From a virus, in the IMG/VR virus record IMGVR_UViG_3300029923_000025, positions 1 through 55,915 of that record: 55,915 nt of DNA. One strand, 5' to 3'. Made by a program: the position numbers and the translations under genes. Below the pieces are notes generated by a model. It had not been told where the DNA came from, made no database searches, and worked only from the letters and a program-made list of their open reading frames with translations. Below, in pieces: positions 7,760-53,240 of the stretch (positions are counted from its first letter, which is position 1; every line of letters begins with the position of its first letter).

Positions 7760-10006
7760 TTAATAAGCAACGCTTACAGTTTTCAGCAATTCGCTTGCCT
7801 GTTTAGCAATATGCCTATTTGCTTTGCCACTTTTATCTGTATGTGGATGTGTTCCATCAGGTAGCCATAAATTAACCATTGAAATTGTTTGTTCTGTTCC
7901 ACCACTAGCAACCCACCATGCAGAACCATCTGAATATCCTGTTACATCCCAATATCCAGTTGTTTTTATTGTCCCTTGTGACATTCCTAATTTATCGTAC
8001 AATGATAAAAATGGAATTTCCCAATAATCTGCAACATTTTTTTGTGCTGTAATGATACTATTTACCCCAGTATGCTTTTGATTGTCATAATGACTCATAA
8101 TAACTATTTTTGTTCTTGGATTATCAGTTAAAATTAAGTTAATAAGAAAATTCATACAACCACTATAACTAAACATACCATTTGAACCAGTAGTATCTGT
8201 AGTAAAATTATCAGTACCTATATCGTTATGACCATGTTCAAATATATACAAGTCTTTTCTATTATTTCCGAGATGATTTACGACTAGTTTATTTTCATAA
8301 GAGTAAGATTTTATATAGTTCGTATCTGTAGTAGTCCATGTTGTAGGGAAAGCACTTGTAAATACGCTTGAATCATATGTACCACTATTGCCATAAGTTC
8401 CACTATTAATTTTATAATTTATCCAATTTGCAATCCACTGCATTTGTTCAATTGTATTAGTCAAACATCTTGAAACTGCTTCAAAATTGTTTATAAAACC
8501 ATAAGGATTAGTAGTTGGATTCACTAAACTTTGTTTTCTACAACATACACAACTACTACCTACTGCTTCGTTTGTAATTGTCATACTTAAATAGTGAGCC
8601 ATTAATAATGGATAACTATTTTCTCTATAATTAGTAGTATCTAATCCGTTTATTCCTGCACCGAATCCAGCTGGTATCGATGTTCCAAAAATTACTGCAC
8701 TTTTATCATTCCATTGAGTTGGATTTTTATTGATTCCGTAACGTTCAACATAAGTATAATCAATACAGTTTTTCTCACAAGCCACATATAATTTAGTCGC
8801 TCCTGTTGGTACTGTGAATGTTTGATATGTGTTATTATAGCTTGATACTGTATATAACGAACCACTTATAAAAGTTCCAGAATCATTAGTACAAAAGTAA
8901 ACAGCAATATATGGATTCCCATATGGATGTATTTTAAGTGTTTGACCTTCTGCAACAGTATATATTTTATACACATTTAAACCATCACTTGCGAACACTG
9001 GAGGTGTTGCTTTGCTATATGTTCCAACTACATAACTATCATGGTCTACGTAGTTATAACGCATAGCATTTTTTGTACCTGTTATAGTAGTATTTATTGT
9101 GTTAATGCTATCCGTTGTACTTTGTATTTTTTGATTAAATAAATAAGTAGTCCAATTCGGAGATGCAAATTTTTTAACGGAATTAATTAGCAAACCATTT
9201 GCACTAATGTCATTTTGCACAGATATATAAGCCCATGCTTTGTTTGATATAGTAAAATAGTAAGCACCCGTACTTGCATTTAATGCACTAGAATTATAAT
9301 ATACACAATTTCCACTTGAATCAAAAGCAATTAATTCTTTATAACTTGTGCTTTTAATATCAAATTTAACGACATCTAAATAAGAAACTGGTATTCTTGC
9401 AGATACATTTTTACCAGCAGAAGCAGTCCATACATAATTCCAAGCGTAATATCCGCCTGTTTCTCCACCTGTGTAAGTAAATAAATCGGCTGATAATAAA
9501 TCTTTTAGTTTAGCTTCCGATACTGCATTATCTGAAATAGATATGCTTTGATAAATTCCACCACTTGTCCAAGCAGAACCATTCCAGTAGTACCAACAAC
9601 CATCTGCACTTACTATATAAGTATTTGTGTTTCCTGTTGGAAAAGCAGTTTGTAATAATGCTAAAGTGGTATAAACTCCCTTTGGAGAACCACTCGCTAA
9701 ACTTGCAATTGCAGATGTATTAGTTGCTATTTGCGATGTATGTGTAGATATTGTAGCTGTATTATTTGCTACATTGGCATTAGTAGTATCTAATGCATTT
9801 TGATTAGCTTTTAATCCAATATTAGCATTTTGTGTTGTTTGTTCCTGTACAATATCTGACAATTGCGTAGAATGACTAGCTACATCTGTTGTTAAATTTC
9901 CAATTTTATTAGCATTTAAAGTTGTATTTCCATTTAATTCGCCAATATTATTATTTATTTTCAAATGCCAATCTGGCTCTCCTTTAATTATGTTTTCTAT
10001 TGCCAT
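7760..10006 (-). CDS. Tail fibre/spike protein with C-terminal SGNH (GDSL-like) hydrolase domain
   Basis: 748 aa, ATG start with an ATAAGGAGTG ribosome binding site. Residues 1-110 are low-complexity heptad repeats rich in Thr, Asn and Ala, typical of trimeric fibres. A short module with 'YYWNGSAWTSGG' follows. The C-terminal 310 residues carry SGNH hydrolase blocks: block I 'VIFGTSIPAGFG' (Ser in GTS), a Gly/Ser-rich segment, block III-like 'FEHGHNDIG', and block V 'LPDGTHPHTD' with Asp and His of the catalytic triad. Phage SGNH domains commonly deacetylate or de-esterify surface polysaccharides, so a receptor-processing role is likely. It lies downstream of BppU and the broken fibre genes. 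Confidence 0.85.
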   Translation of the reverse strand: MAIENIIKGEPDWHLKINNNIGELNGNTTLNANKIGNLTTDVASHSTQLSDIVQEQTTQNANIGLKANQNALDTTNANVANNTATISTHTSQIATNTSAIASLASGSPKGVYTTLALLQTAFPTGNTNTYIVSADGCWYYWNGSAWTSGGIYQSISISDNAVSEAKLKDLLSADLFTYTGGETGGYYAWNYVWTASAGKNVSARIPVSYLDVVKFDIKSTSYKELIAFDSSGNCVYYNSSALNASTGAYYFTISNKAWAYISVQNDISANGLLINSVKKFASPNWTTYLFNQKIQSTTDSINTINTTITGTKNAMRYNYVDHDSYVVGTYSKATPPVFASDGLNVYKIYTVAEGQTLKIHPYGNPYIAVYFCTNDSGTFISGSLYTVSSYNNTYQTFTVPTGATKLYVACEKNCIDYTYVERYGINKNPTQWNDKSAVIFGTSIPAGFGAGINGLDTTNYRENSYPLLMAHYLSMTITNEAVGSSCVCCRKQSLVNPTTNPYGFINNFEAVSRCLTNTIEQMQWIANWINYKINSGTYGNSGTYDSSVFTSAFPTTWTTTDTNYIKSYSYENKLVVNHLGNNRKDLYIFEHGHNDIGTDNFTTDTTGSNGMFSYSGCMNFLINLILTDNPRTKIVIMSHYDNQKHTGVNSIITAQKNVADYWEIPFLSLYDKLGMSQGTIKTTGYWDVTGYSDGSAWWVASGGTEQTISMVNLWLPDGTHPHTDKSGKANRHIAKQASELLKTVSVAY

Positions 10007-10040: not shown

Positions 10041-10545
10041 TTAAATTATTATATTTAATATCACACTAATGACCGAATCACTATATGTAATTATATATTC
10101 CGTATCTGTGATTTTTTCAATAACAGGATTACTCCCTAAATATTTTAAAGGTATATATATAGTAATTGTATTTTTATCATCATAAGCTATTTTATTTTCT
10201 AGTTTATAAGTTGTATCACCAGCTGGAAAATCGCCAGCTCCACCAATACCACCACCATATTGAGTATATAAAGCTCTAATAGATGGATAGGTATTTAGGT
10301 TGTGAGTGATAGTTGCCAGTTTGTATTCATCTGATATTTTTATAGTAGGGTTGGATATTTCATTTTCAAAAGGTAATCCATTGTAAAATAATTGATTATT
10401 TACATATGTAAATTTAGACAGAACTTAATAATGTAAATACTAATTGTGAACCACTAGGGTTTATTGATTTAATACCTGTTACAACTTTTGTAATTTCTTG
10501 ACTAGTATAGGCTTTTGCTTTATTGAGAGTAAAGAAATCTATCAA
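10041..10545 (-). pseudogene. Tail fibre/baseplate gene disrupted by a one-base frameshift
   Basis: The frame starts at a TTG (10543-10545) behind AAGTGATG. It reads IDFFTLNKAKAYT..., a typical N-terminus of baseplate/fibre proteins, and stops at 10414-10416 after 43 codons. The next frame continues without a break from KFTYVNNQLFYNG to a stop at 10041-10043. The continuation contains 'YGGGIGGAGDFPAGD', closely like 'FGAGVGGAGNFPAGAD' in the BppU gene (11596-13743). The total length (505 nt) is one base over a multiple of three, so removing one base near 10424 would give a 167-aa protein. No slippery run is present, so decay or a sequence error is more likely than programmed shifting. Confidence 0.65.
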
Positions 10546-10573
10546 TTTTCATCACTTCTTTCTTTAATTTATT

Positions 10574-10784
10574 TCAGAATGTAATCCATCTATTAGTTTT
10601 TGAATTAAATATTTTAGCTACTATTGTATCATTATCCATTAGAATTGTTATTTGACTTCCATTCTGTATAAATCCTTCTAAGTGGTTTGTATTATCAGGT
10701 AATATATCTCCTTCATTTGCCATAAATTCTTTATAAGGGGGGGGCATTGAGTTGGTAGCCTTCCCTAGTCTTAATTACTGCCAT
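10574..10784 (-). pseudogene. Small tail gene interrupted in a run of eight C (possible phase variation)
   Basis: An ATG at 10782-10784 with an AAAGGA ribosome binding site reads MAVIKTREGYQLNAPPL then stops. The run of eight Cs (plus-strand G8, 10737-10744) lies in the codons for the Pro residues. With seven Cs the frame continues YKEFMANEGDILP...NSKTNRWITF to the stop at 10574-10576, giving 69 aa. An internal ATG just after the run could still yield a 49-aa product. A homopolymer of C in so AT-rich a genome is conspicuous. It sits among tail fibre genes, where phase variation would alter host range. Confidence 0.6.
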
Positions 10785-10964
10785 TTATATCAGTCCTTTC
10801 TATACTGTATTCTCTATATTTACTTATTTAATTTTTAGAAACTATGATTTAAACCTAAAATCTTAATTTATAAGTCTCACTTTATTAATTTTAGACAATA
10901 AAAAAGACTCCAATGGAGTTATTCAAATTGTCTATATATTTTATCTTATTATTTAATTTATTTA
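10785..10964. other. Short spacer with a terminator
   Basis: On the minus strand ACTCC-ATT-GGAGT is followed by CTTTTTTATTG (10893-10919), an intrinsic terminator just past the gene at 10965. No promoter was recognised before the 10784 start. Confidence 0.55.
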
Positions 10965-11595: not shown

Positions 11596-13743
11596 TTATT
11601 CCGTAATATAGTAACTGTAAGTAACATTAGTTATAATTCTAGCTCTAAAAGCAACACTAGCTACATTTAACACTAAATTACTAGCATCTGTATACATTTC
11701 ATACTGGTCAGCAGTATCAGCCCTACCGTATATAGTATTAACTCCATTAATTGATACGCTTACTTCACTTGTCCATAAAATATTAGTAGGATCAGTATAC
11801 TTAAATATAACAATTCTTGGAGTAAAATTAAGAGGTATAGTTACTCCTGTTGGTGTTACATAAATTGAGCCTTCAGCATAGTGCTTACCTCCCAAACTTT
11901 CTATTGTAGCACTTCCCACTACGTCTCCTATAACCTTGTCTTTTACAATATTCGCACTGACTAAATCGGTATATCCTTTTATGGTTTGCGTTTCGCTGAT
12001 ATATTGCCCAGATGAAATTACTTGATCTGATATTGAAGGTTTATAAGTTTGTGCTGTTTTACTTGGTATATTTCCTGTTATTTTAACTCCGTTTATCCAT
12101 GCAGTTATTCCATATAATATTTGATTAGCAGTTGCACTTGCGATAGTTTGACTAGCTAATGAATTTGCACTAATTGTTCCACCATCTATATATCCAAGTG
12201 GGGGATTATAACTTTCACCACAATTTAATAATTTAGAAAGTGTACCGTTGATAGGCATTGTTCCTATTAAATCTGTATCAATATCTGTACTAAACCCGTC
12301 TCCTGCTAATACGTGGGACGCTATAGTATTTCCTACCGCATTAGCTTTTAGAAAAAAACAATCATTACCTAAATCATACCAAATATCATATGCCTTTCCT
12401 TGTACTAAAACAGGTGGATTAGTACCATTAGGTTTATAAAAATGCTTATTATTTATAGTCGTTGAAGCCCCATTATTATTATATTTTGCTATAAATTTTA
12501 ATGGATATCCATTTGTTAAAGTCTTATTAATAACTAGTACCAATTCGTTTGCAGTTCCTTGTGCAGTTTGATAGTTTAAATCAGATATTGAATTATTAAT
12601 TGACACTATACTATCATTAATTGATTTAATTTCTTCTTCTATACTTCCTTCTATTAATTCAATTAAAACACTTCTAGTAGAGTTTAAAAAAGTTACTATA
12701 TATTTATAATCATTTATTTTATTTATTGTTGGACTTGCAATATAATAATTTAAAGGTACAAATATAGTCACATTATTATTATCTGTATATATTGCTTTAT
12801 TTTGCATTAAATTACAATCGCTATCAGCTCCAGCAGGGAAGTTACCTGCACCACCTACCCCAGCTCCAAATTCAGTATAAGTTAATTTAACTACTGGATA
12901 TCCATTTAATCCATGATTGATAGACAATAATTCTTTATTACAATATGTCTCATTTAGCATTGTGTTTGAAAGTGGTACTAATTGAGTTGTATCATAATTT
13001 TTAAATTTTTGTAATTCGACATCAGCATTAGCTATTACAGATATTAAATCATCTTTATCTATGTTTGCACTTATTTTTGCTGAGTCTAATTCATCCCTAA
13101 TAGTCGTTGCACTAGGAATAGATATATCTAATTTGTCACTTATTGCTTTTGAGTTCTGATATAAGGGATTTAATCTAGATTCTATTGCATTGGCTTCATC
13201 AATAGAATCATTCAATGTGTTATCTACTGCACTTGCTTGTGGTACTTTTATTGCAAAATCATCAGCTATTGCTTGTGCTTCAAGAATATCTGCTTTAAAA
13301 CTTGCACTTAATGCCATTGCTATATTTACATCATCATCAAATCGTTCTAAAATATCAACAAAGTTTCTTGAAACGACTCTATCATCATCATTCACAAGCC
13401 CACTAACGTTTAATACTATAAAATAGCTAGATTTTCTATTTCCTAAATTATCTGTAAGTTCAAGTATCCCAATAACTTTTCCTGTAGATGTTGACAATTG
13501 GTTACTACAATTTATAGTTAATAGTTTTCCAACTTTAGTTATATTTTCAACTTGACCATATATAGTTCCGTCTGGTTTTTTAGCTACAAATGTAATATTA
13601 AAATTAGTTAAATCAACTGGAACATCATAGTCATATACATTAAATTGTAAAACCATTGTGTCCATTTGTTGACAATTAGTTTTTAATTTTATACATTCTT
13701 TTAAGTCTATATCCTGTGTTTCCCATGTAAAAATATTTGACAT
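11596..13743 (-). CDS. Baseplate upper protein, BppU family
   Basis: 715 aa, ATG start with AGGGAAGGTGA. Residues 1-120 match the BppU N-terminal domain: an opening FTWETQDIDL, then 'VLQFNVYDYDVPVDLTNFNI', 'FVAKKPDGTIYGQVENI' and 'GILELTDNLGN'. A helical linker covers about residues 140-250. A receptor-like segment has 'FGAGVGGAGNFPAGAD', and a beta-rich C-terminus follows. BppU proteins link the Dit/Tal hub to receptor-binding proteins. A homologue of the central segment is found in the broken gene at 10041-10545, which suggests domain exchange. Confidence 0.85.
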   Translation of the reverse strand: MSNIFTWETQDIDLKECIKLKTNCQQMDTMVLQFNVYDYDVPVDLTNFNITFVAKKPDGTIYGQVENITKVGKLLTINCSNQLSTSTGKVIGILELTDNLGNRKSSYFIVLNVSGLVNDDDRVVSRNFVDILERFDDDVNIAMALSASFKADILEAQAIADDFAIKVPQASAVDNTLNDSIDEANAIESRLNPLYQNSKAISDKLDISIPSATTIRDELDSAKISANIDKDDLISVIANADVELQKFKNYDTTQLVPLSNTMLNETYCNKELLSINHGLNGYPVVKLTYTEFGAGVGGAGNFPAGADSDCNLMQNKAIYTDNNNVTIFVPLNYYIASPTINKINDYKYIVTFLNSTRSVLIELIEGSIEEEIKSINDSIVSINNSISDLNYQTAQGTANELVLVINKTLTNGYPLKFIAKYNNNGASTTINNKHFYKPNGTNPPVLVQGKAYDIWYDLGNDCFFLKANAVGNTIASHVLAGDGFSTDIDTDLIGTMPINGTLSKLLNCGESYNPPLGYIDGGTISANSLASQTIASATANQILYGITAWINGVKITGNIPSKTAQTYKPSISDQVISSGQYISETQTIKGYTDLVSANIVKDKVIGDVVGSATIESLGGKHYAEGSIYVTPTGVTIPLNFTPRIVIFKYTDPTNILWTSEVSVSINGVNTIYGRADTADQYEMYTDASNLVLNVASVAFRARIITNVTYSYYITE

Positions 13744-16389: not shown

Positions 16390-17970
16390 TTAATATATTT
16401 CCGAATCAATATATTTAAATGTAAATCCATGATGATGTCCACTTATCCCTTGACAAACTTTCCCTATATTAGCATTAAATAATTTAACTCCAAATATTTC
16501 TAAACTTCGTCTTTCTAATTCAATTATAGACTTAAAAACACCTAAACTTATTCCATCTTTAAATATTTCTACTTTTTTACCCAATGCTTTTTCCATTTCT
16601 TCTTTTGCATCATAATTAATCCAATCCCATATTTCAGAACCTTGCTTTAAATATTTTCTCGCAGTTTGACCTTTTATGTTAAGAATATTTCCTATATCTG
16701 TAGTTGTCATTTCACAGTTGTCATGTTTAATTTCACAAACTTTTTTAACTAAATTAATACATGCAAATTCTGAACATTGAATCCAATCAATATTACTCAA
16801 ATCAAATTTAGTTATCATCTTTTCATTGTTTAATATACTATTATTAATCCATTCTAATGTACTTTTCCTACAATCTATCACTATATAATTTTCTTCTTTA
16901 ATACCATTTGCTAAAGCTAATTCTTTCTTTAATCTATCATTTTCTTGTTCTTCTTTAAGCATTCTAGAATCTTTTAAATGCGTAAATCCTTCTTCATAAT
17001 GTTGCATACCATGAGTTTCTACAATATACTGTTCATTGTTATATTCAAAATAAAAATCATATTTGTATTTTTTACACCAATTAAACGAAGATTTATTCAA
17101 TTGTGTTTCAAAATCTAGCCCCAATTGTATCAAAATACTAAAAACAAATTTTTCGGGATAGGGAAATTTATCACTACAAATACAAGCTATTGAATGATGT
17201 TCATAAATTGTATTTATCCTCATTTTCTTTGATTTTACTTTTCCACAGTCAGGACATAACGGTATTATGTTTTCATTGCTTCTAGCAGTATATTTCTTAG
17301 CTTCCTCATATCCTCCTTGAAAATAAGGTATCATCCAAGGATCAGTAATAACAATCGAATTAATATTTTTGACTACAATATGTGATGAACTACAACAACA
17401 AGAACAACCTTTTCCATCTTTTAAATTTCCTTCTGTTATCCAATACTCTTCTTTATATATTTTATCTCTAGTAGAATAATGTTCGCCACATTCAAACCCA
17501 CACTCGTTACATTTATATTTATAATATTTTAGCCCTTTTTCATCTTTCTTTGCATCAGTAATGGTGATATTTCTTTTATTATCTTTAAATATCATTCCTA
17601 TTTCTATTTTAAAATCTCCAGTTGCTTTACCTAATATTTTTCCTATTTTACATCTTTGAAAATCACAAGTAAAAACCTCATCTTCCTTATCATTGAATTC
17701 TATTAATATATAATTCTTTTTATCTCTTTCATAATCAATAATTTTAATATATCCTTCTCTGTCCTTGTATATGAAATATATTTTGAAGTTTTTTGAGTAA
17801 TCCCAATTAATACATTTATTAGATATATTTCCTCCCTTTTTACCTTTTCCTCCATGTGGTAAAATATCTAAAAATACTTTTCTAATTTTACTATTCTCAT
17901 AATCTTCTTTATTTTCTTCTTTAAATTTATTTATAATTTCTAAATACTTTTCTTGGCTAATTCTCTCCAT
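16390..17970 (-). CDS. Putative homing endonuclease 1 (zinc ribbons, Vsr/EDxHD-like nuclease, DNA-binding tail)
   Basis: 526 aa, ATG start with ATTGGAGGAA. Residues 1-120 form a family-specific head ending CQxGK-like 'RCKIGKIL'. Zinc-ribbon-type cysteines follow at about 155-200 (CNECGFECGEHYS, CSCCC) and 240-270 (CPDCGK, CICS). A nuclease-like core near 300-370 reads 'YKYDFYFEYNNEQYIVETHG', 'QHY', 'ENDRLKKEL' and 'YIVIDC', as in Vsr/EDxHD enzymes. The family motif E-x-D-G is here E-T-H-G. A helix-turn-helix region (ITTTDIGNILNIKGQTARKY in pattern) and a NUMOD1-like tail with 'VCQGISGHHHGFTFKYI' end it. It is free-standing between the tape measure and Dit genes. Homologues are at 25240 and 32498. 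Confidence 0.7.
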   Translation of the reverse strand: MERISQEKYLEIINKFKEENKEDYENSKIRKVFLDILPHGGKGKKGGNISNKCINWDYSKNFKIYFIYKDREGYIKIIDYERDKKNYILIEFNDKEDEVFTCDFQRCKIGKILGKATGDFKIEIGMIFKDNKRNITITDAKKDEKGLKYYKYKCNECGFECGEHYSTRDKIYKEEYWITEGNLKDGKGCSCCCSSSHIVVKNINSIVITDPWMIPYFQGGYEEAKKYTARSNENIIPLCPDCGKVKSKKMRINTIYEHHSIACICSDKFPYPEKFVFSILIQLGLDFETQLNKSSFNWCKKYKYDFYFEYNNEQYIVETHGMQHYEEGFTHLKDSRMLKEEQENDRLKKELALANGIKEENYIVIDCRKSTLEWINNSILNNEKMITKFDLSNIDWIQCSEFACINLVKKVCEIKHDNCEMTTTDIGNILNIKGQTARKYLKQGSEIWDWINYDAKEEMEKALGKKVEIFKDGISLGVFKSIIELERRSLEIFGVKLFNANIGKVCQGISGHHHGFTFKYIDSEIY

Positions 17971-25239: not shown

Positions 25240-26859
25240 TTATATTGCTTGATTTAATTTTGCATTTTCTTGAATTTCTTTTATTTGTTCTTCGGTAAGG
25301 TCTTTTAAGTATCTAAATTGATATCCTTGATGATGTTGCTGTTTCCCTTGACATACTTTAGTTATAGCACTATTAAACATTTTTATTCCAAATATTTTAA
25401 AACTATTTAATTCACATTCAGAAATGGAATTAAATATAATACCATTTTCTATACAAATTATTTTAGTACTTAACTTTTGTTTATTTCTTTCTATAGTATT
25501 ATTATTATTAATATTTTTTGAAATTTCCACAGTATAATCTGTTATTTTCAGTTCAAATCCTATTTTTAAATACGTGCAAATTGTTGTTCTGCTCATCTTC
25601 ATAATTTTGGAAATTTCAGTTGTACTATGAATACCGATATTCCATAAATCACAAGCTTCTTTGATTCTACTTGACGAAACAAATTTCAAAACCTTACTCC
25701 AATCAATATTGGCTAATAAAAACAAATTATTTATATTAACATTAGATAATATATTATTTTTTATATAATCAAATCCATAGTACATACGATGGTCACAGTC
25801 AACTCTAATTACTTCAATTCCATGTTCAATAGCTAATCTATCTTTTTCATCATCAATAAATTGTGATTCTTTAGCAGTCATATTATTCTTAAAATTCCCC
25901 TTACCATGACCTAGACCCCCATCCATTTCTATAATGTATTTTTTGCCATCTTGCTCAAAATAGAAATCATAATAACCTTGTCTTCGTTTATTTTTATATA
26001 AAAATTTACACCATTCTACTTTCTTTTCTGCTTCAAATTGAACATTTAGTTGTTCTAACACATTAAACATTATTTTATTTGGCACTGAAATACCATCCCC
26101 ACATTTATTACATGAAAATCCGTTCCTTACAAAATTATCAATAGTCATTTCTTTTCTATAATAACAGTCCAAACACTTAAACCACACTTTTTTATGGCTA
26201 CCAATTGTGTATTTCCAAGTATCTTCTTCGTTTACAAAGTATTTAACTAGTTCTAGGTTCGTTTTCCATATAGAATTTATCTCTTTTACGACTTTTTGAG
26301 AATTTGGACAACAAATTTCACAACCTACTCCACGTAGAATATCTCTTTGAGAAATTTCATCTATATCTCCACATGACAAACATTTATATTTATATCCTTT
26401 AACTTTATAACTATAGTTTGATTTAATAATTAATTGTTCTAATATCAATAAATTTGAATGCTTTCCTTTGACAATATCACCTCTATTATATAAATATTCT
26501 TTATTCCTTATATTGAATAGTTTGCCTATTTGACAATTATTAATGCTCCCTGCATTTAAACTTAAGTTTTCACCATAATATTCAATTGTTATTTTTAATT
26601 GTTTATCATATGAATAATCTATTAATCTTATATAATCCTCATGAACACCATATATAAAAAATATATAATAATTTTTATTCACTGATTCAATCCAATTTAT
26701 ACTACCTTCTTTTGCTTTTCCACCTTTTCCCCATCTAGGCAAACATTCCAAAAATATCTTTTTACATTTACCACTCTCATAATCTTCTCTATTATTTTCC
26801 TTAAATTTTTCAATAATCTCCATATATTCTTCTTGATTTAATTGTCTATTTCCTTCCAT
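25240..26859 (-). CDS. Putative homing endonuclease 2 (zinc ribbons, Vsr/EDxHD-like nuclease)
   Basis: 539 aa, ATG start with ATTGGAGGAA. It is collinear with the proteins at 16390 and 32498. The head starts 'LNQEEYMEIIEKFKENNRED'. Cys pairs are at about 155-180 (CLSCGD, CEICC), 220-225 (CLDC) and 245-250 (CNKCGDG). The nuclease-like core at about 290-350 reads 'GYYDFYFEQDGKKYIIEMDG', then GH, 'DDEKDRLAIEHGIEVIRVDC'. The helix-turn-helix 'STTEISKIMKMSRTTICTYL' and a NUMOD1-like tail ending 'VCQGKQQHHQGYQFRYL' follow. The acidic E-x-D-G motif is intact here, unlike in protein 1. It is a free-standing gene placed between the regulatory island and the FxLYD gene. Confidence 0.72.
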   Translation of the reverse strand: MEGNRQLNQEEYMEIIEKFKENNREDYESGKCKKIFLECLPRWGKGGKAKEGSINWIESVNKNYYIFFIYGVHEDYIRLIDYSYDKQLKITIEYYGENLSLNAGSINNCQIGKLFNIRNKEYLYNRGDIVKGKHSNLLILEQLIIKSNYSYKVKGYKYKCLSCGDIDEISQRDILRGVGCEICCPNSQKVVKEINSIWKTNLELVKYFVNEEDTWKYTIGSHKKVWFKCLDCYYRKEMTIDNFVRNGFSCNKCGDGISVPNKIMFNVLEQLNVQFEAEKKVEWCKFLYKNKRRQGYYDFYFEQDGKKYIIEMDGGLGHGKGNFKNNMTAKESQFIDDEKDRLAIEHGIEVIRVDCDHRMYYGFDYIKNNILSNVNINNLFLLANIDWSKVLKFVSSSRIKEACDLWNIGIHSTTEISKIMKMSRTTICTYLKIGFELKITDYTVEISKNINNNNTIERNKQKLSTKIICIENGIIFNSISECELNSFKIFGIKMFNSAITKVCQGKQQHHQGYQFRYLKDLTEEQIKEIQENAKLNQAI

Positions 26860-32497: not shown

Positions 32498-34027
32498 TTA
32501 GGCTACAAATTTAAAAGTATATCCTTTATATTGTGGCTTTTTACCTCGGCATACTGCTGATATTTTACAAAAGTTTAGCTTTGCTCCAAATAATTCTTCA
32601 CTTTTTTCATCTAATTCTTGTGCTGATGGAAATATTCCTTGACTTATATTATCTTTAAATATTTCAACTGGTTTACAATTGTTTTTTGTGACTTTTCTAA
32701 TATGTTCTATTTTGAATTTTTCACTATCTTCTACAGTATAATCGCACCAATCGAGATTTTTACCTTTCTTCAAATAACTAAGTGCACATGAACTTGATAT
32801 TTTTAAAATCTTACCTATTTCCCCTGTACTTCTAATCCCACTATTCCATAATTCACAAGCTTCTTTTACTATTGGCTTATGAGATTGTTCATCAGCTTTC
32901 TTAAAATCAACTTTATTTAAATCAAAATAATAATTTAAATCGCTATTTAGTATATTATTCTTTATATTTTCATATTTTCTAATTCTAAAATAACAATTAA
33001 TCCTAATTGGTTTCTTTATTCCATGTAACATAGCCATTTCTTCTTTATAATCATCAATTGCTTTTGACTCCTTAGAACTTTGTCCACTCATTTTGTTGTC
33101 ATTTTCATGCCAACCACCATCCATCTCTATAATTAAATTCATTGATGGAATGTAAAAATCATATCTTCTTTTGCCTATCCAATCCGGAGAATACTCTGGA
33201 ATAAATTCTATATTTAATTGAGTTAAAATATTAAACATGAATTTTTCAGCGTAACTTTTCCCATCGCCACAATATTCACAACCAATACTTTCATTTGAAA
33301 CAAAAGAATTTACAGAAACTTTTTTCTTCTTTATTTTCCCACATTCTTTACATTTTACATATACTTTTCTATTGCTACATTCACTATGAATATAAGTATC
33401 TTCAATATTTAAAAAGAACTTCGCCATTTCTGGATTTGTTTTAGATATGCTATTTATATCTTTTACTATAATTGTACTATTACAACAAGCACAACCTGTA
33501 TCTCGACTAAGTAGATTATGTTCTGGTATCCAAAATTCATCTTTATATTCCTTATCTCTTATTGAATAATGTTCTCCACAATCAAATCCACACGTATTGC
33601 ATTTGTATTTATAAAGTTTACTTTTTCCTTTTTCATTTTTATAATCGGTTATTGTTATATCTCTTTTATTATCTTTTATTATTTGCCCAATTTTATATTT
33701 AAAATTACTTGTTTTTGTACCAACTATATTCCCTAATTTACATTGTGTAAAATCTCCTGTATTTATTTTATATATATCTTGTAGATAAGATATTTGTAGT
33801 TCTTGTCCAATACTTCTATAATTTATTATCATTACATAACCTGCAACATTTTTATCTATAAAATATACTTTATAGTCGTTGCTATTTTTCCAATCTATAC
33901 TTCCACCATTGTGATTTGATTTAGGTAATACATCTAAAAATATCTTTCTACACGTTCCACTTTCAATTAATTCATTATGTTCTAGTTCCCATTGTTCAAT
34001 AATTTGTTGATATTCCCTTTCTTCCAT
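32498..34027 (-). CDS. Putative homing endonuclease 3 (zinc ribbons, Vsr/EDxHD-like nuclease)
   Basis: 509 aa from the ATG at 34025-34027, which follows ACGGAGGAATTAGTG; the longer frame to 34102 only translates the leader RNA. Conserved parts: 'REYQQIIEQWELEHNELIES' head, 'CNTCGFDCGEHYSIRDK', CACC, 'CKECGKIKKKKVSVN', CEYCGDG. The nuclease-like core is 'KRRYDFYIPSMNLIIEMDGG', then H, 'DDYKEEMAMLHGI' and 'PIRINC'. A helix-turn-helix ('STGEIGKILKISSSCALSYL') and a NUMOD1-like tail with 'ISAVCRGKKPQYKGYTFKF' end it. It shares long stretches with protein 1 (GEHYS-x-RDK, DNKRDITITD). It lies between the tail tube gene and the tail completion gene. Confidence 0.72.
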   Translation of the reverse strand: MEEREYQQIIEQWELEHNELIESGTCRKIFLDVLPKSNHNGGSIDWKNSNDYKVYFIDKNVAGYVMIINYRSIGQELQISYLQDIYKINTGDFTQCKLGNIVGTKTSNFKYKIGQIIKDNKRDITITDYKNEKGKSKLYKYKCNTCGFDCGEHYSIRDKEYKDEFWIPEHNLLSRDTGCACCNSTIIVKDINSISKTNPEMAKFFLNIEDTYIHSECSNRKVYVKCKECGKIKKKKVSVNSFVSNESIGCEYCGDGKSYAEKFMFNILTQLNIEFIPEYSPDWIGKRRYDFYIPSMNLIIEMDGGWHENDNKMSGQSSKESKAIDDYKEEMAMLHGIKKPIRINCYFRIRKYENIKNNILNSDLNYYFDLNKVDFKKADEQSHKPIVKEACELWNSGIRSTGEIGKILKISSSCALSYLKKGKNLDWCDYTVEDSEKFKIEHIRKVTKNNCKPVEIFKDNISQGIFPSAQELDEKSEELFGAKLNFCKISAVCRGKKPQYKGYTFKFVA

Positions 34028-34164
34028 CACTAATTCCTCCGTTGAATTTATTTTCCGATTTATATGTAATATAGGAAGGGAGTTCGGAATACTCCTTTTC
34101 AATAAGGCTCATGACTTCCTTATTTATCCTACATTACAATAATACCATATTTAGGTATTATTGT
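34028..34164 (-). ncRNA. Structured leader RNA of endonuclease gene 3, with upstream palindrome
   Basis: Plus coordinates, minus-strand fold. P1: 34127-34137 with 34066-34076, 11 bp with one G-U. P2: 34118-34124 with 34101-34107, loop AAGTCATGAG (34108-34117). P3: GGAGT (34091-34095) with ACTCC (34079-34083), loop ATTCCGA. TTCCGA (34084-34089) pairs with TCGGAA (34053-34058), and TTCCG can pair with the CGGAG of the ribosome binding site with one G-U. Upstream, ACAATAATACC (34136-34146) and its complement (34154-34164) form an 11-bp palindrome that overlaps the -10-like TATTAT and the start of P1. Confidence 0.75.
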
Positions 34165-44531: not shown

Positions 44532-46426
44532 TTATATAGAATTGAAATTTACTGATGAAACAAATGTTGGTGCTGTTGACCAATCAACTTGTGGTGCTTG
44601 CTTATTAACTATTCCGTCACGTCTAAGGTTTTTTAAATGCCAAGCTAACATTACCATTGTGTAAGCTCTATCATCATGCATTTTACTCTTTTTATCAGGA
44701 GGCAGTTCATATTTATAATTTATATCATCACCTTGTCTTCTTATTGCAATTAATTCTTCTTTTGCGTTATCAATTTGCTTTAATGCCAATTCTTCGTCCC
44801 AAGATAGATTGTATTGTTTATAATCTATTGATTTTACCTTTTTCTTTTCATTCGTATCCTCATCAATTTCTTCAATCTCTTTTCCTTCCTGTGGTAGACT
44901 TAAGTACCCTTTCATATCATAATTATCTGTAAATTCAATTAGTCCTAAATTTAATAATTCTACAAAATCATCATACATTTCTGTTTTATATTTTTTAGGT
45001 GATACTAATTTTAATTTTCCTACTGCATTCGGATAAGAATTTACATGTTCAGCACAGGCTTCTTTATCAATTAATCCCCTATGTTTATTTCCTTGTTCAT
45101 CTTCCCAGTCGTCCATAAAATAATCTGCGATTATCGGACCACCACCTCCTGAACCAGCATCAACTAGTAAACAATCTATATTCTCATAATCAGCCTTGCC
45201 TTTTCCGTTATAATTTATTAGCATTTGTTTTATCTCTTTAATTTGTTCTGGCGTTCTCATTGGAGTTTTTTTCTTTTTCCCTAAATCCACAAGACTTACA
45301 CAGTTTTGAATTATTAATTTCCATCCAACTTGTTCATCATATATATATTCTCCTACTGATGTCGCTGAATTATCATAATCATGTGCTGGATCATATGAAA
45401 TTGCAATGTGTCTTTTTATATTTCCTTCATTAATTAATAATGGTTTTCTAACTGATGAATTTTTCATAATTACTGCACGTTTTATAGGTTGTTTATTTCC
45501 ACCATCAGCATCAAAACGATTAAAATATTCTCGATTTGCTTTCTCTGAGTTTGACCTTATTTCATCATCAACTTTAGATTGTGATAACAATGGTATATTT
45601 AATTTTTTACCTTTTAATGTAGCTCCTATTATAACCTCACAATTTAAGTCAGCTACAAAATGGTCTTTACTTCCTGCAAACATTAACTTTGCCCACTCTT
45701 TATATAATGTATAAAATGCAGAATCCGTACTACTAGCAGATGAACAAAACAATAATTGATTAGGAATATTCATCGGTATAGTTTCGGTGTTTATACCACC
45801 ACCTAACTTAAACGACGAATCCTGTGTACAAAATGATTTTGTAACTGAAATATAGTTTTCACTTATGAAACCACTTTCATCATACAAATTTAAATTTGAT
45901 CTTTTCCCTCTAATATTATCTTCTTCCCCAGAAACAGTAGTAACTTGACTGTTGTTAAATAGCTTACATCTAAATCCTTGAGGAGAGTGAACAAATCCAT
46001 CATGGTTAGCACTTGCAGAAACTTCTCCTAAAAATATATCTGTTAATCCACAAAAAGATTCTATTTGTTTTTTTGCTATTGACTCCATTTTAAGTTGTCA
46101 AAGAAAGGTATCTTGGCTTTGACTTGCGGTTAATGAAAGTATAAAGCTTTGAAAGTTTGGAAATAACATCATTTTTGTCATTATAAATGGAGAACTTAAA
46201 GTTGATTTACTCAGCCTCCATTACGAGACATCAACCATAATGCAAATTGTTTGCTCCATGATTCTTGAAATGTATATTTTTGATAATCCATAAGTTCAAG
46301 TCCCAACACTAATTCTGCGAACTTTACAGGATTTCTTCTTCCCCATACAAGTATTTCATTGTATTTTAAATAACCTTCTAACTTTTTTTGAGTCAAATTA
46401 CCTTTATTTATAATTGTGATACCCAT
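44532..46426 (-). pseudogene. Terminase large subunit, broken by a frameshift and an in-frame TGA
   Basis: Fragment A (46211-46426) begins 'GITIINKGNLTQKKLEGYLK' and ends in MSRNGG at a TGA within the Walker A loop. One base added there would restore SRNGG-LSKSTL and continue 'SSPFIMTKMMLFPNFQSFIL' to 'SQSQDTFL'. That frame meets a second TGA (46098-46100) and then runs on as fragment B (ATG at 46086-46088). Fragment B holds Walker B 'LNLYDESGF', nuclease Asp in 'ISYDPAHD', 'CLLVDAGSGGGGP' and a late Asp in 'KMHDDRAYTM'. A complete protein would be about 630 aa. No intron fits, because the coding sequence is continuous. DNA packaging would fail if the lesions are real and not recoded. Confidence 0.75.
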
Positions 46427-52643: not shown

Positions 52644-53240
52644 TTATATAATTATTTCATCAGCAACATTTAATTTTAAAGCAGTAGCACCATCCATATA
52701 AAAGTCTTTATTACTCTTTGTATAGCTATCAAATTGTTCTTTAGTTATACCTGTTTTCTCAGTTATTAAATCAACTATTAACTTGTACCATCTATCGCAT
52801 TGCTCTCTATCATTTACAGTATCTTGATATGTCTCAGTACCGTATCTAAATCTATTCCATTGGTGTCACATTAAATCACTTCTCTTATATACAAATCTTT
52901 TAGATCCACATATAAATATTTTGAATGCCATTGAATAAGCATAGCTTGTACAATATGTATGAATTTCTATCCCTTTATTAATGTAATATTCCATTAGGTC
53001 ACAAAAATGCATTCCATCAACTAAACTTCCTCCTGGAGAAGCTATGATTAATTTTATTGGTGTTCTATCTTCCTTGCTCAATGATAGTTGTTTAGTGGCA
53101 AGTTTCTTTAATTGTCTTGATAACATTATTATAAATTCAGTTGTAATTTCATCATCAATATATAGTGTATTATTATCTTTGTAATCTACTAATTTGATTT
53201 CTTCTAGCAATAAATTCCGTTGTTGATATACTTCTCCCAT
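52644..53240 (-). pseudogene. ClpP-like protease with an in-frame TGA before the catalytic His
   Basis: The ATG at 53238-53240 opens a frame of 199 codons to the TAA at 52644-52646, close to the usual ClpP length. Codon 125 is TGA (52866-52868). Before it come the oxyanion segment 'IASPGGSLVDGMHFCDLM' and the nucleophile region 'YAYSMAFKIFICG' (Ser about residue 103). After it the sequence continues HQW (His about 126) and 'SNKDFYMDGATALKLNVADE' with the expected Asp. The stop is followed by CA, as is the terminase TGA. It could be a nonsense mutation (for example from TTA), leaky UGA or error. Confidence 0.7.

Follow-up and report, generated by a model that had tools for sequence, protein, structure and literature searches.

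In Fletchervirus phages of Campylobacter, polyG tracts make the genes for receptor-binding proteins phase-variable (Sorensen et al. 2021, Cell Rep 35:109214; PMC11959909, PMC10579305), and among the sources consulted phase-variable tail-region genes are described for Campylobacter phages only. Listeria phages PSA, A118, and A500 use +1 ribosomal frameshifting on CCC codons in their cps and tsh genes (review PMC5009743). The locus described here, a run of eight cytosines (C8) in a small open reading frame (ORF1) next to a second interrupted gene (ORF2), shares features with both systems, and also with ordinary homopolymer frameshifts in dispensable phage genes and with BppU-type baseplate upper proteins.

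Like the Fletchervirus genes, the locus has a G/C mononucleotide run in a tail-region frame, the length of which would switch the product. Unlike them, it has a single tract in a gene for a small protein without a family match, the tract is C8 in both records that hold it, the neighboring gene is broken at a non-repetitive site, and the host group is different. With the Listeria phages it has in common a low-GC genome, rare CCC codons, the +1 direction, and a nearby stop codon, but neither a second useful product nor a stimulatory structure was found. An ordinary homopolymer frameshift would likewise combine a rare run, a frame break, and a broken neighbor in an accessory module with homologues not found in the databases searched; the difference is that the codon signature of ORF1 and ORF2 is intact, hence any such event would be recent. 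The BppU_IgG domain (PF18667) of BppU-type proteins is recognizable in the second piece of ORF2, but ORF2 is broken, and ORF1 matches no family.

The C8 tract, ORF1, and neighboring genes

The window, meaning the whole stretch of DNA analyzed, is IMG/VR record IMGVR_UViG_3300029923_000025 and comprises 55,915 nucleotides of an uncultured phage, at 27.5% GC. A contig of 130,085 bases, IMGVR_UViG_3300028646_000003, includes the whole window with one mismatch, at base 128, and this second record is identical to the window over 10,171 bases, C8 included. Read directly from the sequence, the run, CCCCCCCC, occupies positions 10737-10744 on the minus (coding) strand and appears as G8 on the plus strand. 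It is the sole G/C run of at least six in both the window and the 130 kb contig; the second-longest in the window is five, and nothing exceeds five elsewhere in the contig either, which bears out the claim of the first-pass annotation that the tract is an outlier in an AT-rich genome. By Markov extrapolation, about 0.01-0.06 C runs of eight or more are expected per window, and G8 or C8 was present in 6 of 100 dinucleotide shuffles. In the codon usage of the window, CCC makes up 4.5% of proline codons and GCC 5.6% of alanine codons, and the probability of encoding Ala-Pro-Pro as GCC CCC CCT is about 0.001. The tract is a clear outlier, yet not astronomically rare, and similar runs are expected when many windows are scanned.

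Searches with the flanks on both sides of the run returned the 130 kb contig as the sole true match; L015, a candidate further record for the upstream flank, proved to be an unrelated 61% GC phage matched by chance. The tract is therefore C8 in both records holding the locus (n = 2, perhaps not independent). No C7 run occurs in any of nine close relative records, leaving the 130 kb contig alone within the close group of ten. Runs of C7 to C9 are present in 5 of 21 more distant records, none of which encodes ORF1; the runs that were examined fall within genes with no relation to it or within short frames.

The upstream part of ORF1 (10731-10784, minus strand) starts at ATG 10784, behind a good Shine-Dalgarno sequence, AAAGGA, at 10794-10799 (minus strand), for which the duplex value is -8.3 (median over genes, -8.9). 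In the C8 allele, translation from this start yields MAVIKTREGYQLNAPPL and reaches a TAA stop after 17 codons; with one C fewer, a stop is reached only at 10574, after 69 codons, so that the two product lengths given by the earlier annotation are reproduced. The effect of tract length on frame is periodic, with C7 and C10 both giving the long product from ATG 10784. The downstream part of ORF1, in the +1 frame (10574-10747, minus strand), can also be entered from ATG 10747, which adjoins the run, opens a 57-codon ORF, and has a possible Shine-Dalgarno sequence of its own, GGGAAGG, at 10759-10765 (minus strand; duplex -7.0, spacing 11). A C9 tract would give neither the long product from ATG 10784 nor the 57-codon ORF from ATG 10747. 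The codon signature past the tract is 0.24, compared with a mean of 0.24 (sd 0.09) for in-frame genes and -0.16 off frame; since this value matches real genes, the frame break in the consensus sits in a real gene.

As in contingency loci, the repeat tract goes beyond what composition predicts and lies within an ORF, though 6 in 100 shuffles reach its length, and its length switches the frame of a complete ORF, with the internal ATG 10747 as a caveat. Because that ATG has a fair Shine-Dalgarno sequence, the equation of C8 with an "off" state is uncertain: the 17-codon stop holds for ATG 10784, but 57 codons could still be made from the internal start. Ribosomes on the C8 allele would reach the full frame through a +1 (or -2) shift. 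The programmed -1 shift that had been suggested runs in the wrong direction, and translation rules it out as a continuation of the ORF1 protein, the result being a C9-like dead end of 35 codons in all with unrelated sequence.

The 69 residues of ORF1 have no confident family match, with PHROGs matches at chance level (E 0.06), and an AlphaFold model of the C7 reading has a low-confidence mean pLDDT of 58.5, with residues 1-30 below 50 and four strands past residue 32 predicted at low overall confidence. ORF1 is placed among tail-region genes by its position, with Prophage_tail/BppU-type genes on one side and a GDSL-like tail protein on the other; its earlier designation as a tail gene holds for this location, but the protein sequence adds no family assignment. 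No homologue of ORF1 turned up when IMG/VR and GTDB contigs were scanned with peptide patterns, in tblastn searches of phages and plasmids (INPHARED, PLSDB), or in 38 related records (17 + 21), and no related DNA was found in INPHARED or PLSDB.

Upstream of ORF1 on the coding strand lie, in order, a predicted intrinsic-terminator-like hairpin (10900-10919, minus strand), a 64-aa gene, a 139-aa gene, and an intact 715-aa baseplate protein in which a domain search identified BppU_IgG (11596-13743, minus strand); Prophage_tail and Dit-like genes follow further upstream. On the other side of ORF1 is ORF2, about 170 codons if whole, and then an intact tail protein (7760-10006, minus strand) with a GDSL-like domain below the Pfam cut-off. 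By translation and codon signature, the upstream part of ORF2 runs for 43 codons from a TTG start at 10545 (10414-10545, minus strand). An A4 run near 10550, considered as an extra frameshift, is unneeded because this TTG start accounts for the upstream part. The downstream part, in the +1 frame (10041-10424, minus strand), carries the BppU_IgG domain (PF18667, E 1.5e-10), and the 715-aa protein is its paralogue, with 42% identity. The sequence at the break, AGTTCTGTCTAA (10414-10424, minus strand), is non-repetitive. The downstream part has no ATG, GTG, or TTG start yielding at least 40 codons, so ORF2 is one broken gene in two pieces and not two separate genes. The breaks in ORF1 and ORF2 lie within about 370 bases of each other, and TAA terminates both upstream frames. 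Each gene is open in two pieces, whose codon signature remains that of real genes, and the flanking genes are intact.

In G006, the nearest relative with a tail region (terminase 88% identical), the 139-aa gene is kept and other genes stand at the position of ORF1 and ORF2, which marks the pair as a variable accessory module. Three related genes of 526-539 aa also occur among the structural genes of the window (16390-17970, 25240-26859, and 32498-34102), with relatives in G006 and G014; they may be mobile genes of the homing-endonuclease sort.

Proposed decay and possible switching or recoding of the ORF1-ORF2 module

The leading reading, held tentatively and at somewhat less than even confidence, is recent decay of a two-gene accessory baseplate/tail module. 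ORF1 and ORF2 would together have formed a small module, the function of which was recently lost in the phage population. In ORF1 an indel would have arisen within the C run, which is unusually long and of the type most prone to polymerase slippage; in ORF2 the frame would have been broken again, outside any repeat. Both would be loss-of-function mutations under relaxed selection and not parts of a regulated switch. Decay is favored because the tract is no habit of close relatives and because the break in the neighboring gene is not at a repeat. The two breaks also lie close together, while ORFs aligned with relatives are otherwise broken in TerL and ClpP only, and both records of the locus are C8. 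Occasional reversion by slippage is possible in a mononucleotide run, but with ORF2 also broken there is no sign of selection keeping a switch. Judging from sequence comparison, the module is probably dispensable, as other genes take its place in G006 and an ORF1 homologue was found nowhere searched. Several observations count against decay. The codon signature of both genes is still intact, which restricts any loss to recent times; the tract itself is unlikely under codon usage, which could mean selection for it; the locus is present in two assemblies only, and these are possibly non-independent; and a start at ATG 10747 could still yield the greater part of the ORF1 protein.

Phase variation comes second to decay and is unlikely on present evidence. 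Replication slippage in the C run would toggle ORF1 between the 69-codon form (C7, C10) and the truncated form, as the first-pass annotation had proposed. In favor, the longest G/C run in 130 kb, improbable from codon usage, lies near the 5' end of ORF1 with an intact coding signature downstream, and the Fletchervirus receptor-binding proteins offer a precedent (review PMC11959909). Of that proposal, the existence and rarity of the run and the codon counts (17 and 69) hold up, but length variation was seen in no result, both records being C8. A C7 run occurs in 0 of 9 close relative records, the neighboring ORF2 is broken where there is no repeat to slip, and a run of this length arises in 6 of 100 shuffles.

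Two ways of obtaining protein from the C8 allele as it stands are each improbable. In one, C8 is the normal state and ribosomes start at ATG 10747 to make a 57-aa protein, possibly coupled to translation of the 17-codon leader. The internal ATG is in frame with the coding part, its Shine-Dalgarno duplex (-7.0) beats 95% of random 20-mers, and the overlap of the two ORFs resembles that in translational coupling. Against this, ATG 10784 has the stronger site, ATG 10747 has a long spacing (11), an N-terminal part of 13 residues would serve no purpose, and ORF2 would be broken regardless. In the other, which is similarly doubtful, +1 ribosomal frameshifting on rare CCC codons would give some 69-aa product from C8 mRNA. 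CCC is as rare here (4.5% of proline codons) as it is in Listeria (about 5%), and a stop codon lies about one to two codons past the run, but no use is apparent for the 17-aa product of unshifted translation, no stimulatory RNA structure is predicted near the site (z-score +1.05), and no ORF1 homologue was found for a conservation comparison. An unusual phage tRNA as decoder is rejected, tRNA-Ser(gct) being the sole tRNA found.

An assembly or sequencing error concealing a true C7 is very improbable: homopolymers are error-prone and C7 would give a clean gene ending just ahead of the next one, but C8 is present in two separate records that differ at base 128 and so are not copies of one assembly, and an error in the run leaves the ORF2 break unexplained, making assembly an unlikely source of C8.

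Terminase and ClpP frame breaks in this phage group

Alignments with relatives covering about 6,000 aa of ORF sequence showed frame breaks in the large terminase (TerL) and ClpP genes and none elsewhere; this restriction rules out genome-wide frameshifting. The TerL genes of the group carry breaks of their own, common to different samples. Insertions of exactly 4 nt occur within the N-terminal 45 codons in six lineages, at two or three preferred codons. At a homologous Glu/Asp codon, the inserts are GAG-TGAA-TTC in L092, GAT-TGAC-TTT in L095 and L096, and GAA-TGAG-TTA in L109 and L150. After Trp-Gly-Arg, they are CGA-TAGT-AAA in L094 and CGA-TAGA-AAA in L097, L098, and L100, and one codon beyond that site CGA-ACGA-AAT is found in L144-L149 and L153. 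TerL is intact in L093 and L099, which are 90% and 80% identical to L092, respectively. Five of the six inserts open with an in-frame UGA or UAG and none of the six with UAA, even though the genomes of the window group have about 27% GC. At five of the six TerL breaks, one nucleotide separates two codons that specify the same amino acid, an arrangement that follows 6.3% of codons in intact genes. In L111/L024 (G007), a second small deletion (AATCA) past the TGAG insertion brings the end of the N-terminal part nearly back into frame.

The TerL gene of the window (minus strand) is interrupted by GGC-TGAGT-AAA in the Walker A motif (46209-46213) and by CTT-TGACAA-CTT (46092-46103), and its interrupted sequence recurs in other samples; it may be either a dead terminase or a case of recoding. 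A ClpP-like protease gene has an in-frame TGA at 52866-52868 (minus strand; SDLM-TGA-HQW), identical in three other records, and diverged relatives read through this position without a stop.

Larger TerL insertions, of roughly 250 to 1000 nt, occur in L031/L149 (G014) after GKR and after AYDP, and in L104 and L105 at the Walker A region. They look intron-like by eye, and those of L031 match no intron family at the Rfam gathering score. Positions 734-812 of L031 match skipping-rope RNA (RF02924, 61.6 bits). A 122 kb Bacillus velezensis plasmid record, NZ_CP097468.1, encodes at 95017-96498 a TerL that shares 63% identity with the L033 protein and is possibly a phage-plasmid of this group.

The 4-nt inserts are candidates for a programmed +1 frameshift or a +4 hop, or else for a recurrent scar. 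It is conceivable, at very low probability, that the group tolerates +1 and +4 breaks and reads through them by recoding, with C8 (CCC-C-CCT) and the ORF2 break (TCT-G-TCT) as further cases; the upstream frames of ORF1 and ORF2 end in TAA and not in UGA or UAG, which leaves them out of the TerL class. A C run that did vary would make ORF1 a tail-region gene under phase variation, in a low-GC phage that has a clostridial-type endolysin; on present evidence, the simplest description of ORF1 is a broken accessory gene. The recurrent 4-nt terminase frame breaks are stranger than the C8 run and constitute the larger lead.
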